DNA of 64,000 nt. Source: Alkaliphilus pronyensis. GTDB lineage: Bacteria > Bacillota > Clostridia > Peptostreptococcales > Natronincolaceae. The position numbers were made by a program, and so were the translations under genes. Every line of letters begins with the position of its first letter. The first letter of the stretch is position 1. Positions 20,995-27,224 of this stretch are shown piece by piece. Location: the NCBI RefSeq assembly GCF_009017275.1, contig NZ_WBZC01000026.1:1-64000 (forward strand). The letters run 5' to 3'. Below the pieces are notes generated by a model, which saw only the letters and a program-made list of their open reading frames with translations, was not told where the DNA came from and did not search any database.

Positions 20995-22893
20995 TCAATT
21001 AATACACAGACCCATTTCCTTAAGTATCTTTAGTATGTCCAACTGCTCCTTTAAGGGTAGCAACTGGTTTTCAAGGATATACTGTGACAAATATATTTCT
21101 GCTAAAGCCCTTTCATGTCCTAACTTAAACTCCTGTAGGTCTATTTCTTCATCTGTGTCCTTGTTCCAACCCCTACTATTTTCAAATACTCCATCCCTTG
21201 ACATCAAAAACACCTTATCGTCTTCAATAAAGGAGCCCTTAGCTGTGTGAATAAAGGTAGTTGCAAAGCCATTGTTGTTGTTTAAAAGGTCTTTACCTAT
21301 ATAATATGAATTTTCAATACTAATACCCAGTAAGTTGGCTATGGTTGGAAAAAAATCCACCATTCCACCTGTAGTAGTTATTTCACAGTTTATATTGGAG
21401 CCAGGTACATGAATTAAAAATGGAACCCTTAGCATATCATCTTCTCGATATTCAGCATTCAGAAATACCTCTAGCAGCTCAGTGGCTTCTTCATCCTGCA
21501 TTTTAAGTCCGTGGTGATCACCATATACTATAATAACAGAGTTATAATACAGTCCTTCATTTTTTAAGTCTTCTATCAATTGGCCTATGGCACTATCTAA
21601 ATAATTTACAGTTTGAAAATAGTTCCCCAAAATTGTATCCTTGTAGTCTGAGTTCAAAGTTAAGCTTTTGTATTTATCCTCCATTATATATGGATAATGA
21701 GAGGTGAGGGTAATGAATAGGGAATAAAAAGGCTGATCTATAGACTTTAAGTATGGAATGCCTTGCTTAAACAGTGACTTATAACTTAGTCCCATTCCTA
21801 TTATCTCTTCTTCTTCTAATTCCTCTGAACTTATGAAGGTATCAAAGCCCATATAGGGGTACATGTTTTTACGATTCCAGAAATCAGGCTCATTTCCGTG
21901 GAATACAATAGTATTATAGCCCTTCTTCTTTAATAGATTTGGCAGGGTTATAAGGGTTTTTCCTTCATAGCTTTTATAGCTATAATTCTTAGTTGAGGGA
22001 AGAAAACCAGTATGAGAAACAAACTCTGCATCTGAGGTATTTCCCCAACCTACCTGCTCATAATAATTTGAGAAATATATGCTATCGTTTTTTATTAGTT
22101 GGTTTAAAACCGGAGTAATTTGCTGACCATTTACCTCTTTATTAATTACAAAATTCTGAAAAGACTCTGCTTGAACAACTATAATGTTTTTACCTGCTAT
22201 TAATCCATTATATTTGTTTTTTTCAACCTCTTCTTCCTCTTCTACTATAACTTCTTCAGCTATACTTGCAAAGCCCGCCGGTATTGTCTTATCACTAAAT
22301 ACTCTAGATAAGTCATAAATATGATAGTTAATCATGCCTAGATTATGTGGAGTTCTAATTGCATCATCTGCATTATTAATAATAAAATGACCTACCCCAG
22401 AGGTAAAAGCTAAAAACAACACTAGCATAAATACCTTTGAAGCCTTCATTGGTTTAACCATTAGTCTTTTACTTTTTTTGTATATTCGATTATAGTACCA
22501 AACAAGTGGTGCTATATCTACTAAAAAAAGAATATGGTATGGCTGCAAAATAGCCCATATACTGTCTCCAACACCGCCAACATGATTAATCTGATAAATT
22601 ATATGAACCGGTAAAAGAGTGGTGAAGTGCTTATAATATAAGCTATTAAATATAAAAACTATAGAAATAAAACAATTTATAATAATAAAAATTTTAAACA
22701 TATCTGTTTTCTTTATTAATGAGGCTAAAAATAGAATAGCCATTACGGTTAGTCCATTTAAAATGGATATGATAATGAGATTACTTTTAACACCTATAAA
22801 ATAGTGAAAAACAAGTAGCTTTAAAAACAATAATCCGCTAAATAAAAATATAAGCTTTGATATACTATCTTTTTTTGTATATTGTTGAATCAT
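20995..22893 (-). CDS. LtaS-like lipoteichoic acid synthase / sulfatase family protein
   Basis: 632 residues: five predicted membrane spans in the first 170 residues, then an extracellular sulfatase-fold domain. The metal glutamate lies in QAESFQ (Glu243), the nucleophilic threonine in GWGNTSDAE (Thr286), and the late metal site in YGDHHGL. FHGNEPDFWNR is the glycerol-phosphate-binding type segment. Such enzymes transfer glycerol phosphate from phosphatidylglycerol to the growing lipoteichoic acid or related polymer. A Glu-rich patch (214-224) marks the linker before the catalytic domain. The gene stands alone, converging with the symporter. Confidence 0.92.
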   Translation of the reverse strand: MIQQYTKKDSISKLIFLFSGLLFLKLLVFHYFIGVKSNLIIISILNGLTVMAILFLASLIKKTDMFKIFIIINCFISIVFIFNSLYYKHFTTLLPVHIIYQINHVGGVGDSIWAILQPYHILFLVDIAPLVWYYNRIYKKSKRLMVKPMKASKVFMLVLFLAFTSGVGHFIINNADDAIRTPHNLGMINYHIYDLSRVFSDKTIPAGFASIAEEVIVEEEEEVEKNKYNGLIAGKNIIVVQAESFQNFVINKEVNGQQITPVLNQLIKNDSIYFSNYYEQVGWGNTSDAEFVSHTGFLPSTKNYSYKSYEGKTLITLPNLLKKKGYNTIVFHGNEPDFWNRKNMYPYMGFDTFISSEELEEEEIIGMGLSYKSLFKQGIPYLKSIDQPFYSLFITLTSHYPYIMEDKYKSLTLNSDYKDTILGNYFQTVNYLDSAIGQLIEDLKNEGLYYNSVIIVYGDHHGLKMQDEEATELLEVFLNAEYREDDMLRVPFLIHVPGSNINCEITTTGGMVDFFPTIANLLGISIENSYYIGKDLLNNNNGFATTFIHTAKGSFIEDDKVFLMSRDGVFENSRGWNKDTDEEIDLQEFKLGHERALAEIYLSQYILENQLLPLKEQLDILKILKEMGLCIN

Positions 22894-22956
22894 TTTTATG
22901 CCCTCCTATATGCTCATAAGATATTCTAGCATATAGCAGAATATTTTTCCAATTAA

Positions 22957-23694
22957 TTAGGATTTTTCAGTTAAATGCTTCCAATATCGAGTTGGCATAA
23001 AGCTTCTCTGTAGCTTTGAATTTTTTCTTTCTTTTATTGCAATGTTTTTAAAGTATGTTTTCCATAACTCTTGGTATAAAGCTTCTTCATTATTATTTGT
23101 TATTTCATTTTTGTATTGTAGAGGTGCTATAAACCATTGACTTTTATCGAATATAGCTGCGGTGTCCCTCTTTTTATCGTGAATAATCCAATTTTGGTCT
23201 GCCATACGCTTTGCAAAATGTGGTGCTAACAATCCAACTATATGATGATCTGGCTCAATTGAGGCATAGTATAAATCTTCTTTTATTAACTGAAAACGCA
23301 CTAGGCCAAGCATTCTATGCTTCTCCCTTGTTACCTTCTTACTAATTTTATGGATTTCAAGTATATGCTTATTAGTCAACAGGTGATCCACCTGCTGACC
23401 CATTTTAAAGGCAATTGTTAAATATCTATAGATAATTGTAGGTGCATCCACTGTTTCTGATAAAAAAGCATGATAAACATGGCGGAGTGCTTCTTTTGAT
23501 ACTTTCTTTACAATGGCATCATATACCTTATTTGACTTAACTTCATCGGTTTCAATAAATTTTACAGCATCAACTAGGTTAGGCTGGTGATAGACTTCAG
23601 TGACGATTCTATCGGGCCTAGCATTTGTATAGTATGCTTCATATACAGCTGTTAACAAGCCTTCGAATGTGTTGTCAAATACGAAAATTATCAT
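22957..23694 (-). CDS. DUF4130-type putative DNA repair protein, partner of the radical SAM gene
   Basis: 245 residues. The start IIFVFDNTFEGLLTAVYEAYY and the internal MLGLVRFQ and PHFAKRM segments match the DUF4130 family that is almost always encoded beside a radical SAM putative DNA modification/repair protein. The stop codon of that gene and this start are separated by a single base, so the two are co-translated. Members have an alpha/beta core and have been likened to uracil-DNA glycosylases; the reaction is not established. An upstream LexA-like box suggests induction by DNA damage. Confidence 0.85.
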   Translation of the reverse strand: MIIFVFDNTFEGLLTAVYEAYYTNARPDRIVTEVYHQPNLVDAVKFIETDEVKSNKVYDAIVKKVSKEALRHVYHAFLSETVDAPTIIYRYLTIAFKMGQQVDHLLTNKHILEIHKISKKVTREKHRMLGLVRFQLIKEDLYYASIEPDHHIVGLLAPHFAKRMADQNWIIHDKKRDTAAIFDKSQWFIAPLQYKNEITNNNEEALYQELWKTYFKNIAIKERKNSKLQRSFMPTRYWKHLTEKS

Positions 23695-23695
23695 T

Positions 23696-24985
23696 TTATA
23701 GCTCTCCTGTTATTATTGATTCCTTTAGCTTATATACATCAAAAAATGAAAGCTGCTTTTCATTCTGATTTGATGGTGATAATATGGGTTTTACTGTTAA
23801 GCTCTCCCTTATTAAGTGGTCTTTTAATCCGACTTCACTGTAATACTTTCCCTGGCAGGTAATAAAGTATTTTGCCCTTTTTAGCACTACTCCGATTTTC
23901 TTCAACCCGTCATAGCTTATTGGGGCAAGTCTTCTAGCTGCGATTATTCTTCTAGCAGATTGTACACCTATTCCAGGTACCCTTAAAAGCATATGATACT
24001 CTGCTTTATTAATCTCTATAGGAAATAAACTAAAATTGTTTAAAGCCCAATCGCATTTTGGGTCTAATTGAACATCAAAGTTTGGCTGACGCTCATTTAA
24101 CAGTTCATCGGCACTAAAGCCGTAAAATCTTAAAAGCCAATCTGCTTGATATAGCCTATGCTCCCTTAAGGTTGGAGGATTTGCTAAAACAGGTAAATTT
24201 GGGTGTACACCAACAGGTACATAAGCTGAATAATATACTCTTTTAAGTTGAAAGCGATTATACAGGCCTTCTGATAGTTTTAGTATTTGAAAATCGTGGT
24301 CTTGTGTTGCCCCAACAATCAATTGTGTGCTTTGACCTGCGGGAGCAAAGGCAGGACTGCTTTTAAAGGCTCTTCTTTCCTCCTTTGATTGCTGATGTTG
24401 CTTTGTAATTAGGGACATAGGCTTAATGATTTCTTCTTTCTTCTTTTGAGGTGCCAATAGCTTTAGCCCGCCATTACTGGGAAGCTCGATATTTACACTC
24501 ATTCTATCTACATATAAGCCTGTCTCATGTATTAGCCTACTATCGGCACCTGGTATTGCCTTAACGTGTATGTACCCGTTAAAGTTATGCTCAGTCCTTA
24601 ATATTTTAACTGTGTTTAGTAACTGCTCCATAGTATGATCTGGGTTAATCATAATTGCTGAGCTTAGAAATAATCCTTCAATATAGTTTCTTCTGTAGAA
24701 ATTTATAGTTAACTCCGCCACCTCATTTGGTGTGAAGGCAGCTCTTGGCAGATCATTTGATGCCCTATTTATGCAATAGGCACAATTGTATATGCAATAA
24801 TTGGTTAACAAAATCTTAAGTAAGGAAATACAGCGACCATCATCTGACCAGCTGTGGCAGATTCCACTAATGGCAGCATTTCCTATTCCATCAGCTTTGT
24901 TTTTTCTGGAGCTACCACTTGAGGAACAGGATACATCATATTTTGCAGCATCTGCTAAAATCTTTAACTTATCTTTAATTTCCAT
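23696..24985 (-). CDS. Radical SAM putative DNA modification/repair protein with helix-hairpin-helix
   Basis: 429 residues. The 4Fe-4S motif CX3CX2C is at Cys64, Cys68 and Cys71 (CIYNCAYC). Earlier cysteines Cys20, Cys43 and Cys52 may add structure. Near residues 330-350 a helix-hairpin-helix segment (VPGIGVQSARRI) points to nucleic acid binding. It belongs to the uncharacterised family paired with DUF4130 proteins, with a proposed role in DNA base modification or repair. It begins 80 nt downstream of a good promoter whose -35 is overlapped by a LexA-like box. Confidence 0.88.
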   Translation of the reverse strand: MEIKDKLKILADAAKYDVSCSSSGSSRKNKADGIGNAAISGICHSWSDDGRCISLLKILLTNYCIYNCAYCINRASNDLPRAAFTPNEVAELTINFYRRNYIEGLFLSSAIMINPDHTMEQLLNTVKILRTEHNFNGYIHVKAIPGADSRLIHETGLYVDRMSVNIELPSNGGLKLLAPQKKKEEIIKPMSLITKQHQQSKEERRAFKSSPAFAPAGQSTQLIVGATQDHDFQILKLSEGLYNRFQLKRVYYSAYVPVGVHPNLPVLANPPTLREHRLYQADWLLRFYGFSADELLNERQPNFDVQLDPKCDWALNNFSLFPIEINKAEYHMLLRVPGIGVQSARRIIAARRLAPISYDGLKKIGVVLKRAKYFITCQGKYYSEVGLKDHLIRESLTVKPILSPSNQNEKQLSFFDVYKLKESIITGEL

Positions 24986-25073
24986 TTTCCCTTCCCCATT
25001 TTACAAGTTTTTTACTAATTTATTAATTGTTTGCTAGCAATTAGTTATCTTTTAGCTTTTACCCTATAGAATG

Positions 25074-25102
25074 ATTTTATCAGTAATATCATCCATTGTC
25101 AA
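25074..25102 (-). promoter_or_regulatory. Vegetative promoter of the radical SAM repair pair
   Basis: Minus-strand TTGACA (25097-25102), a 17-bp spacer and TAAAAT (25074-25079) make a near-consensus promoter. The start point would be near 25067, giving a leader of about 80 nt. Confidence 0.85.
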
Positions 25103-25113
25103 ACACATGTTCT
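25100..25113 (-). promoter_or_regulatory. LexA-like SOS box overlapping the -35
   Basis: Minus-strand AGAACATGTGTTTG fits the Gram-positive LexA pattern GAAC-N4-GTTC with one change in the core (GTTT). It overlaps the -35 hexamer, where a bound repressor would block polymerase. Confidence 0.65.
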
Positions 25114-25293
25114 ATAGGTGTCTATGTAATATTTGTAAATTTTATATGTAATTTTATATGTAAAATATGTTTTCCTCAGCTGCATAAAATATATAATACT
25201 GGGTATTTAATACACAAATGAAAAATGTTAAATAATAAATGGAAATAATAGCTATTTACTATATATTATTGTTTTTTTAAGGGGGTTGGTAAT

Positions 25294-26019
25294 ATGCTAA
25301 GGTCTAACAAAAAAATTAATAAAGCACTTTCTGCATTTCTAAGGGATCCTCTATGGTTATATCTTTTAGGTATATCCTTTATTACCTTCATGATTGCAGA
25401 TGAATCTGTTGAATATATGCTAGCTTCTATATTTTTAATGTTTTCACTTATTGTTATATTTTATATGTATTTAAACAGGGCTGAATCTCTACACAAAAAA
25501 ATATTTATGGAATTTAGTAGCTTTGGTGAGGAGTATACATTATTATCCTCTGTTACCCTTGAGAATGAAGGATCTAAAGGATATTCTGATTATATCTTTA
25601 TTTCTGCGAAGGGAATTTTTAACATTCGAGCACTTGACTTTCAGGGGGTTATAAAGGGATTCGAAAATGATGATGTTTGGTCCTATATGAAAATAACTAG
25701 TTTATATGATATGGCAGTTAAGGCTATTAAAAACCCTATATACTACCACCAAAAAACCCATAATATTATCTATGATTTACTTGCTAAAAACAATATACGC
25801 TATATTCCTATTCAATCGATTATTGTAATTAGAGACGAGGATGCTGAAATATCCACCAATAGCAATATACCTATCATAAAGGCAAAAAATCTTAAAAAAT
25901 ATATAAGTCAATACTCCAATCGACAAAATATGTTCTCTTTATTGGATGAGATTGTTGCTATATTCAATAATGAAACAGTATTCAACTATAATTTCAGTGG
26001 TAAAGCTGTAGGTAATTGA
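25294..26019 (+). CDS. Membrane protein with a degenerate NERD-like domain
   Basis: 241 residues: two adjacent membrane spans (about 20-38 and 42-60), then a cytoplasmic domain. The segment DYIFISAKGIFNIRALDFQGVIKG, described here as residues 98-121, resembles the NERD nuclease-related fold, where the family normally has an E-x-K pair; here it reads IRAL, so catalytic residues seem missing. A trailing H near residue 155 and later beta strands also fit loosely. It may bind and not cut nucleic acid, or the likeness may be superficial. It stands alone between a divergent repair operon and a repeat tract. Confidence 0.5.
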   Translation: MLRSNKKINKALSAFLRDPLWLYLLGISFITFMIADESVEYMLASIFLMFSLIVIFYMYLNRAESLHKKIFMEFSSFGEEYTLLSSVTLENEGSKGYSDYIFISAKGIFNIRALDFQGVIKGFENDDVWSYMKITSLYDMAVKAIKNPIYYHQKTHNIIYDLLAKNNIRYIPIQSIIVIRDEDAEISTNSNIPIIKAKNLKKYISQYSNRQNMFSLLDEIVAIFNNETVFNYNFSGKAVGN

Positions 26020-26029
26020 TGGAGAGATT

Positions 26030-26290
26030 AGTACAAATATTAAAATTAAAAGTGAAAATAATAATTGAAAATTGAAAGTTGAAAATGGAAAATGAAAAAA
26101 ATATAAAAGCAATGTTGAATGTTAAATGTCGAATGGTGAATGAAAAGACTAAATCAAAAACCTTAATACCTTAAAACATTAAATAAAAATTGAGAATCGA
26201 AAATGGAAATCAAGAAGACATAATTAAAAATTAAAGGTTAAGAACTAAAAATCAAAAGATAAAACAAAAATGAAATATTAAATATTGAAT
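26030..26290 (+). repeat. Purine-rich heptad repeat tract 3
   Basis: Starting 10-20 bp after the preceding stop codon, units such as TTGAAAA, TTGAAAG and TTAAAAG run on the plus strand, the same sense as the upstream gene. It shares GCAATGTTGAATGTTAAATG with tract 2 and the phrase at 26212-26234 with tract 1. No gene is present. Confidence 0.75.
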
Positions 26291-26305
26291 TCTGCAATAG
26301 CATTG

Positions 26306-26352
26306 AAGCCCAGCAGTTATACCTTCTTAGATAGGTATAGCCACTGGGCTTT
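26306..26352. terminator. Long two-step hairpin between convergent genes
   Basis: Outer arms AAGCCCAG and CTGGGCTT and inner arms TATACCT and AGGTATA form one 47-nt hairpin. T-runs on either side are weak, but the position between two converging genes makes a bidirectional terminator likely. Confidence 0.65.
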
Positions 26353-26378
26353 AACTTATATTAATATGAAGCTAAACT

Positions 26379-27224
26379 TTACTTTTCAAGAATTCCTACC
26401 ACCATCTTAACAAATCCTTCTTTAAGCAATGGTAGCTTTGCTAAGGGGGTAAAAAATGATCTAAGGGGAACTTCTCTATAATATACTACTTTATAATTGG
26501 TTTTATGGAGTAGCTCATTAAACCACTTTATGGTCATTCCATTTATATAGGAGAAATACTCATTCCCATTCTCATCCCTTGCAATTCTAAAATTTATTCG
26601 TTCCTCACCATCTGGTAAGTTTTTTACCTTATCCTTGTAAACCTCTATAAGTGTTTTATCATCAAAGAATAAATGCACCCACGGAAAGCCAATCGCATCA
26701 CTTAAATGGGCTCCAAAGGGATGATAATATGGGGGAAAGTTTACATACAGCCTACCCTTTGGCTTCAACACCCTATAGCATTCATTTAAAACCTGTAAGG
26801 GCTTATCTACATGCTCCATAGCATCATTCATAATAATAGTGTCAAAGTGATTTTCTTGGAAAGGTAGCTTTGCAGCATCTCCAGATATGAATTGGAAACG
26901 ATCCTCTAAGCCCTTTTCTTTAGCTAAGGCCTTTGCCTCCTCTTCATATCTTTCCACCACTTCTATTCCATAGACCTTTTTTGCCCCCTGTGCTGCATAA
27001 TAAAGGGTTTTCCCAGCTGCTCCACAGCCAATGTCCAGTACTACCTTGTCCTTAAGAATTTCATCCTTTGTTGCCTTTTCAAGATAAAACCTTAGTGTTT
27101 CCTCTCCCCTTTGGAATTGCCACTGTCCATAGGTTTTTAAACCTTCATTTTTAAGATTAAAGGGGTGTACAGGCAATGGAAACAATTTATTTAAACCTTT
27201 ACATAATGTTGTTTTAACTGACAT
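26379..27224 (-). CDS. SAM-dependent class I methyltransferase
   Basis: 281 residues from the ATG at 27224, which has AAGAGGT upstream; an upstream ATG that would overlap the SLH gene is rejected. The SAM-binding motif I is VVLDIGCGAAGKTLYYA and motif II includes DTIIMNDAMEHV, both typical of the UbiE/Coq5 or methyltransferase-11 class. The acceptor is unknown. A proline- and aromatic-rich middle (NFPPYYHPFGAH) suggests a small lipid or sugar acceptor in related proteins. It follows the SLH gene by 19 bp and may modify an envelope component, but this is inference. Confidence 0.75.
   Translation of the reverse strand: MSVKTTLCKGLNKLFPLPVHPFNLKNEGLKTYGQWQFQRGEETLRFYLEKATKDEILKDKVVLDIGCGAAGKTLYYAAQGAKKVYGIEVVERYEEEAKALAKEKGLEDRFQFISGDAAKLPFQENHFDTIIMNDAMEHVDKPLQVLNECYRVLKPKGRLYVNFPPYYHPFGAHLSDAIGFPWVHLFFDDKTLIEVYKDKVKNLPDGEERINFRIARDENGNEYFSYINGMTIKWFNELLHKTNYKVVYYREVPLRSFFTPLAKLPLLKEGFVKMVVGILEK

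Follow-up and report, generated by a model that had tools for sequence, protein, structure and literature searches.

The radical S-adenosylmethionine (radical SAM) gene and the DUF4130 gene of Alkaliphilus pronyensis form a pair that is very probably an operon under LexA repression, with DNA damage as the inducer. The pair lies in the stretch of 64,000 nucleotides analysed here (contig NZ_WBZC01000026.1, positions 1 to 64,000; hereafter the window), where the two genes are located one base apart on the minus strand, with the radical SAM gene (23696-24985, 429 aa) upstream of the DUF4130 gene (22957-23694, 245 aa) in the order of transcription. The radical SAM product scored 666.4 bits against TIGR03916 (rSAM_link_UDG; curated cut-off 343.5), and the DUF4130 product 286.2 bits against TIGR03915 (cut-off 112.25) and 187.4 bits against Pfam DUF4130 (gathering score 27). 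The existence of the operator, its conservation and its lineage-specific swapping emerged from genome comparison, from which we infer LexA binding, repression and induction. The pair looks like a regular, uncharacterised part of the SOS response.

Predicted LexA box and its conservation in orthologs

The initial annotation had placed a near-consensus promoter in front of the pair, with a LexA-like box overlapping its -35 element. Direct reading of the minus strand from 25113 to 25074 gave AGAACATGTGTTTGACA-N17-TAAAAT and confirmed both elements. The promoter TTGACA-N17-TAAAAT (25074-25102, minus strand) agrees with the consensus at 11 of 12 positions and has TG before the -10 element (extended -10). 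The predicted LexA (SOS) box GAACATGTGTTT (25101-25112, minus strand), of which an extended form AGAACATGTGTTTG can be read at 25100-25113 on the same strand, has two bases of its core in common with the -35 element and begins 127 bases upstream of the radical SAM ATG. LexA bound to GAACATGTGTTTG would thus cover the -35 element. RecA would activate the self-cleavage of LexA, the promoter would open, and the radical SAM protein with its helix-hairpin-helix part would be made together with DUF4130.

The orthologs provided the main support for the predicted box, rather than the rarity of the motif. TIGR03916 was found over the cut-off in 82 of 198 genomes sampled from the order of the host, and all 82 loci were fetched. 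Two of them (L136 and L161) were dropped because a contig end cuts the radical SAM start, leaving 80 loci that include the window's own (L037). A box of the pattern GAAC-N4-GTTY or its mirror form was present within 250 bp upstream in 66 of the 80, and within 700 bp in 72; the latter limit was chosen after six additional boxes at -288 to -678 had been seen, and a match at -819 (L113, genome G082) was left out of the count. The same pattern was found in 6 of 988 coding windows, in none of 75 windows past the DUF4130 stop, in 2 of 77 windows located 1000-1250 bp upstream, and in a mean of 0.8 and a maximum of 3 of 80 over 200 single-base shuffles. Among lexA loci of these genomes, which served as a positive control, 44 of the 47 fetched carried the box. 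The similar boxes that the initial annotation expected in front of orthologs were accordingly found, rather than a lack of conservation.

The arrangement of box and promoter was also shared. Close relatives showed the same layout as the window, whose radical SAM protein has its closest named match in Alkaliphilus peptidifermentans (84%), and 9 of 23 upstream regions listed read GTTTGACA, with the box joined to a perfect -35 start as in the window. Order-wide, a promoter matching at least 9 of 12 positions with its -35 element over the box was seen in 34 of 66 cases, a figure given here without a shuffled control. The genome itself encodes LexA (C30:43967-44584, 248 bits), and the promoter of this lexA, read directly as GAACTAGTGTTTGTAT, 17 bases and TATAAT, has the same geometry of box and -35 element. 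In addition, AAGAACAAATGTTCGA is located 58 bases before the start of recA, and another box lies 298 bases before a frame resembling the start of a Y-family polymerase, named from the sequence by eye.

The bare core of the box is not rare in this genome. The 12-mer GAACNNNNGTTY had five matches in the window versus 2.2 expected, and 9 of 100 shuffles gave at least as many. Genome-wide, it had 69 matches in the forward and 78 in the reverse orientation, versus 58 and 60 for a reversed control pattern. Promoter-like sites were likewise near chance level, with 34 in 5 kb versus 27.6 expected, although the window promoter was the top one of the 34. A tighter form, GAACATRTGTTY, occurred at two sites in 3.06 Mb (the window site and C65:3702) with no control matches, but was picked with the window site in view, and the complete string of box and promoter, which had a single occurrence in the window and none in 100 shuffles, is descriptive only as the pattern is the site itself. 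The frequency of the core, the several copies of the box inside open frames and the ordinary number of promoter-like sites would all suit a chance match beside a constitutive promoter of an operon outside SOS control. This explanation is nevertheless highly improbable, given the box in 66 of 80 orthologs versus less than 1% of coding windows, and the lineage-specific operators in three other groups described below.

Absence of the box accompanies absence of LexA in the genomes compared. With the 250-bp limit, LexA was encoded in 61 box-bearing genomes and missing from 5, versus 9 and 5 of the genomes without a box (p 0.012); with the 700-bp limit the numbers were 67 and 5 versus 3 and 5 (p 0.0005). 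Both p values are too small, since the genomes are related. Of the eight orthologs that lack a box within 700 bp, five come from genomes in which no match to LexA exceeded the cut-off (G050, G059, G076, G082 and G033).

Several observations weigh against SOS control of the pair. For eight of the 80 orthologs, the 700 bp upstream held no box, and LexA is encoded in three of the genomes concerned (G170, G119 and G028). Conversely, 5 of the 72 box-bearing genomes had no full-length LexA match (G030, G039, G048, G145 and G190), G048 being scored in this way as its over-cut-off match spans only model positions 78-201 in an 824-aa frame. The ten genomes without LexA are all drafts of 40-450 contigs, some of which may just miss lexA. 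Among 13 box-bearing stretches of the A. pronyensis genome, six had the box within a long open frame (L009, L257, L258, L259, L261 and L262), and the motif alone is therefore a poor predictor and weak evidence. Moreover, one Fusobacterium record and one Gemmatimonadota record carried none of the motifs tried.

At two loci of the order, L159 and L160 (genomes G121 and G084), the TIGR03916 copies are divergent (423 and 422 bits) and have paired boxes, spaced by 27 bases, at 400-570 bases upstream. These copies perhaps form a subfamily of their own that is preceded by a different gene. Elsewhere in the genome of A. pronyensis, the region C8:3000-8000 (L263) contains several LexA-like boxes beside a LexA-like N-terminal fragment, along with frames resembling by eye a DNA adenine methylase and a Y-family polymerase. 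It is possibly a mobile SOS module.

Operators in other bacterial groups and earlier reports

The relatives in Bacteroidota, whose radical SAM proteins were 56-65% identical, had CTAA-N5-TTAG upstream at all 37 loci, 33 of which are from Pontibacter and hence not independent; ten non-Bacteroidota loci of L063-L109 were left out of this count. The motif was absent from all of 834 coding windows, and shuffles gave a mean of 0.26 and a maximum of 3. The copies on alphaproteobacterial plasmids carried GAAC-N7-GAAC or GTTC-N7-GTTC in 9 of 9 cases (shuffle mean 0.07). This direct-repeat form is the alphaproteobacterial LexA operator. In Caballeronia, both copies had CTGT-N8-ACAG, the E. coli-type box, whose consensus is quoted in PMC4234289. 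These nine alphaproteobacterial and two Caballeronia loci, together with the Fusobacterium and Gemmatimonadota (Gemmatirosa) loci mentioned above, were 13 of 25 listed among 158 plasmid records; they were selected by eye so as to be well spread, and L265, L267, L270 and L272 have an inferred gene start. The motifs were hardly interchangeable: the 80 clostridial upstream regions held the CTAA motif in none and the alphaproteobacterial motif in three, and the clostridial motif was found in 0 of 37 Bacteroidota and 0 of 9 Alphaproteobacteria. The spacing of the two genes also differed, as the gap was about 220-330 bases in Pontibacter (598 in L085) and the clostridial genes mostly near-overlap.

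These comparisons suggested that the SOS wiring has been kept across the groups with the operator rewritten to each lineage's own type, which provides the strongest evidence that the SOS link matters. The proposal of the initial annotation, probable SOS control of the pair, thus gained support from the LexA of the genome, the boxes of orthologs and the predicted operators of the other groups. The operon is widespread within the order (82 of 198 genomes) and appears SOS-wired through four operator types. Such conserved wiring tells when the substrate should be sought, namely after DNA damage; what to assay is indicated by the invariant cysteines and the DUF4130 fold described below.

In the comparison with earlier reports, COG4277 is taken to be the TIGR03916 family. 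The SOS link itself had already been predicted, for Clostridium acetobutylicum in 2013 and for relatives linked to uracil-DNA glycosylase (UDG). LexA control of CAC3343-CAC3344 in C. acetobutylicum was predicted within a LexA regulon, for which the LexA box was found by footprinting and expression data were cited in support (PMC3828012). This pair is assigned to the same family by its printed product name, and the prediction concerned one species with no other operator types in the parts consulted, unlike the present comparison. A COG1573-COG4277 operon was predicted to be SOS-controlled in Bacteroidetes, with reports cited for Verrucomicrobia and Alphaproteobacteria, and CTAA-N5-TTAG was reported for Bacteroidetes SOS regulators (PMC8565304). 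That operon is similarly a UDG-linked two-gene unit under predicted SOS control, and its CTAA-N5-TTAG is the motif of our 37 Bacteroidota loci; it is named for uracil-DNA glycosylase, whereas the clostridial pair stands without UdgX (0 of 198 genomes over the cut-off). The Streptomyces venezuelae gene vnz_31145 ('Radical SAM protein') is listed in a LexA table from chromatin immunoprecipitation sequencing and RNA sequencing (PMC9380542), and is again a radical SAM gene under LexA, known from its product name rather than from an assignment to TIGR03916.

Our literature search left preprints uncovered and covered subscription journals thinly. Within this coverage, no paper joining UdgX and radical SAM was found; among the matches listed, DUF4130 and radical SAM occurred together only in PMC3765255, COG4277 only in PMC8565304, and CAC3343, TIGR03916 or TIGR03915 only in PMC3828012. 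No mention of SOS or an operon was found in the part of the UdgX literature searched. The breadth of the apparent operator swap and the candidate fold relationship of DUF4130 are the additions made here; they were not found in print, an absence weakly tested.

Possible function of the two proteins

We know of no reaction assigned to the radical SAM-DUF4130 operon. The pair may be a two-protein DNA-repair enzyme, in which the radical SAM protein would apply radical chemistry to a damaged or abnormal base, its helix-hairpin-helix part would bind DNA, and DUF4130 would act as a partner gripping the strand or the nucleotide. Repair of damaged bases is the role that we favor, and this mechanism is offered as a tentative one.

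In 138 radical SAM sequences, which included four Alphaproteobacteria, the window's own sequence twice and a few near-identical pairs, C20, C43 and C52 were invariant along with the CX3CX2C set C64, C68 and C71, and C377 was conserved in 126. The protein therefore likely has an auxiliary cluster beside the radical cluster, deduced from the three extra invariant cysteines only, as residues 12-56 were poorly modelled. The barrel in the model, which was of moderate confidence (pLDDT 72), was closest to lipoyl synthase (Z 15-16) in the fold search, followed by biotin synthase and HydE. A helix-hairpin-helix was located near residues 323-352; its model matched all 33 aligned members at E of 0.1 or lower, and the radical SAM profile matched ComEA and RuvA weakly.

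Spore photoproduct lyase (SplB), another radical SAM protein of DNA repair, is SOS-linked in several bacteria (PMC8565304, PMC3765255). It was absent among the 50 matches listed for each of our fold searches, which is compatible with kinship, and the window protein differs from it in the extra cysteines and the helix-hairpin-helix part.

DUF4130 itself has been predicted to be an enzyme related to mutagenesis, with links to radical SAM proteins of the SplB type and to uracil DNA glycosylases, and the enzymes associated with it might modify thymines (PMC3765255). This description, the mutagenic polymerases included in SOS regulons, and a barrel closest to sulfur-inserting enzymes, which might attach a group to a base, are consistent with an SOS-controlled mutagenesis or base-modification system instead of a repair enzyme. 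We regard such a system as rather unlikely, although the evidence against it is weak: none of the three proteins tested matched the PADLOC defence-system models, and occurrence in 82 of 198 genomes suits a housekeeping role. A reading of the pair as a defence system was dropped on the same PADLOC result.

The DUF4130 model was good (pLDDT 88.6). Foldseek placed two chains from a single PAP phosphatase (E 4e-4) at the top of its PDB matches; a pGpG phosphodiesterase came next, then a DHH domain and entries for RecJ. The first 40 rows of the VIA list were read as DHH-superfamily proteins (Z 9.0 to 4.5) and covered residues 1-206; several chains there bearing only a replisome title were presumed to be Cdc45. 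Named rows among the first 15 from a viral library were phosphohydrolases, exopolyphosphatases, phosphoesterases or RecJ-like exonucleases. PAP phosphatase, RecJ, Cdc45 and pGpG phosphodiesterase are grouped under DHH, and Cdc45 is held to be a non-catalytic DHH-like protein among eukaryotes. These matches provided a lead that DUF4130 may be a shortened, probably non-catalytic DHH/DHHA1-like (RecJ/Cdc45-like) protein.

The same DHH-dominated matches, with the degenerate motif-I-like residues D7 (119 of 133 sequences), E/D11 (122), G12 (123) and S/T15 (120), might instead indicate an active DHH-type phosphoesterase or nuclease that processes the radical SAM product. We consider this improbable, because the only acids conserved in at least 95% of the 133 sequences were E124, D173 and E243, no histidine reached that level, and a DHH domain is longer than the N-terminal part of DUF4130. 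The residues conserved at that level thus included no catalytic Asp/His set, which distinguishes DUF4130 from RecJ, Cdc45 and NrnA (DHH-DHHA1 proteins) despite the fold matches over residues 1-206; sequence similarity to them was also undetectable.

The structural readings of both proteins face counter-evidence of their own. The best PDB match of DUF4130 had a TM-score of 0.43 with a root-mean-square deviation of 7, and the best Z of 9.0 came with a deviation of 5.2 over 191. Profile-profile comparison of DUF4130 with RecJ, NrnA, GdpP and AlaRS gave probabilities of 0.1-0.3% versus 0.2% for an unrelated radical SAM control, the NrnA and GdpP profiles being built from only 2 and 3 sequences. 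When 35 DUF4130 members were scanned against Pfam, the second matches were all weak and none was to a DHH model. For the radical SAM protein, residues 12-56 with the three extra cysteines were modelled at low confidence, and the window protein fell below the Pfam gathering scores for Radical_SAM and HHH_3, while being far above the TIGR03916 cut-off. Kinship of DUF4130 with DHH proteins by sequence was rejected, as the profiles gave no signal above controls and Pfam none for DHH, and no solved structure of a DUF4130 sequence relative was found.

A link to UdgX was seen in Proteobacteria. At nine proteobacterial loci with annotated genes (L215-L218, L264, L266, L268, L269 and L271), the gene after the radical SAM gene encodes 467-494 aa with the UdgX motif GEQPG in all nine and a KRxxH-type loop recognised in five. 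The four of these proteins that were scanned matched both TIGR03915 and TIGR03914 (UdgX) and are hence fusions; on proteobacterial plasmids, where such fusions lie beside TIGR03916, the radical SAM and DUF4130 parts and their order are as in the window, whereas DUF4130 of the window stands alone. TIGR03914 was over the cut-off in none of the 198 genomes of the order and had no match in the A. pronyensis genome, and UdgX-model matches at E up to 0.001 were present in 39 of the 198, none over the cut-off. The radical SAM-DUF4130 core therefore occurs without UdgX. As UdgX captures uracil and abasic sites, its fusion to DUF4130 suggests that the lesion is related to a pyrimidine or an abasic site. 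The precise physiological role of UdgX was called largely unknown (PMC10359453), and an understanding of the pair may shed light on UdgX as well, since it is fused to DUF4130 in Proteobacteria. A still more speculative picture is a core SOS enzyme of new repair chemistry, in which a radical SAM protein with a lipoyl/biotin-synthase-like barrel and an auxiliary cluster would act on a DNA lesion gripped by a catalytically retired RecJ/Cdc45-like DUF4130 clamp, re-wired in each lineage to the SOS repressor found there and welded to UdgX in Proteobacteria.

Neighbouring genes and mobile contexts

A gene for a lipoteichoic-acid-synthase-like sulfatase (20995-22893, minus strand) follows 63 bases past the pair, and its homolog is kept at the same place in A. 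peptidifermentans, A. serpentinus and a Clostridiaceae metagenome-assembled genome. A search of 21500-26500 gave no terminator-like site, so that SOS read-through into this same-strand gene is possible. On the other side, a NERD-domain gene (25294-26019, plus strand) is divergent and shares the intergenic region containing the box with the pair; a tblastn search of the other L026-L161 loci found no homolog of it.

The family also occurred in mobile contexts, comprising the 158 plasmid records, 10 phage records and 2 viral contigs. At least 126 of the plasmid records were alphaproteobacterial, as judged by the ten commonest genera, and 142 were non-mobilizable. The phage records are candidates, consisting of eight unannotated faecal 'Bacteriophage sp.' entries and two 240-kb Acinetobacter 'phage' entries.
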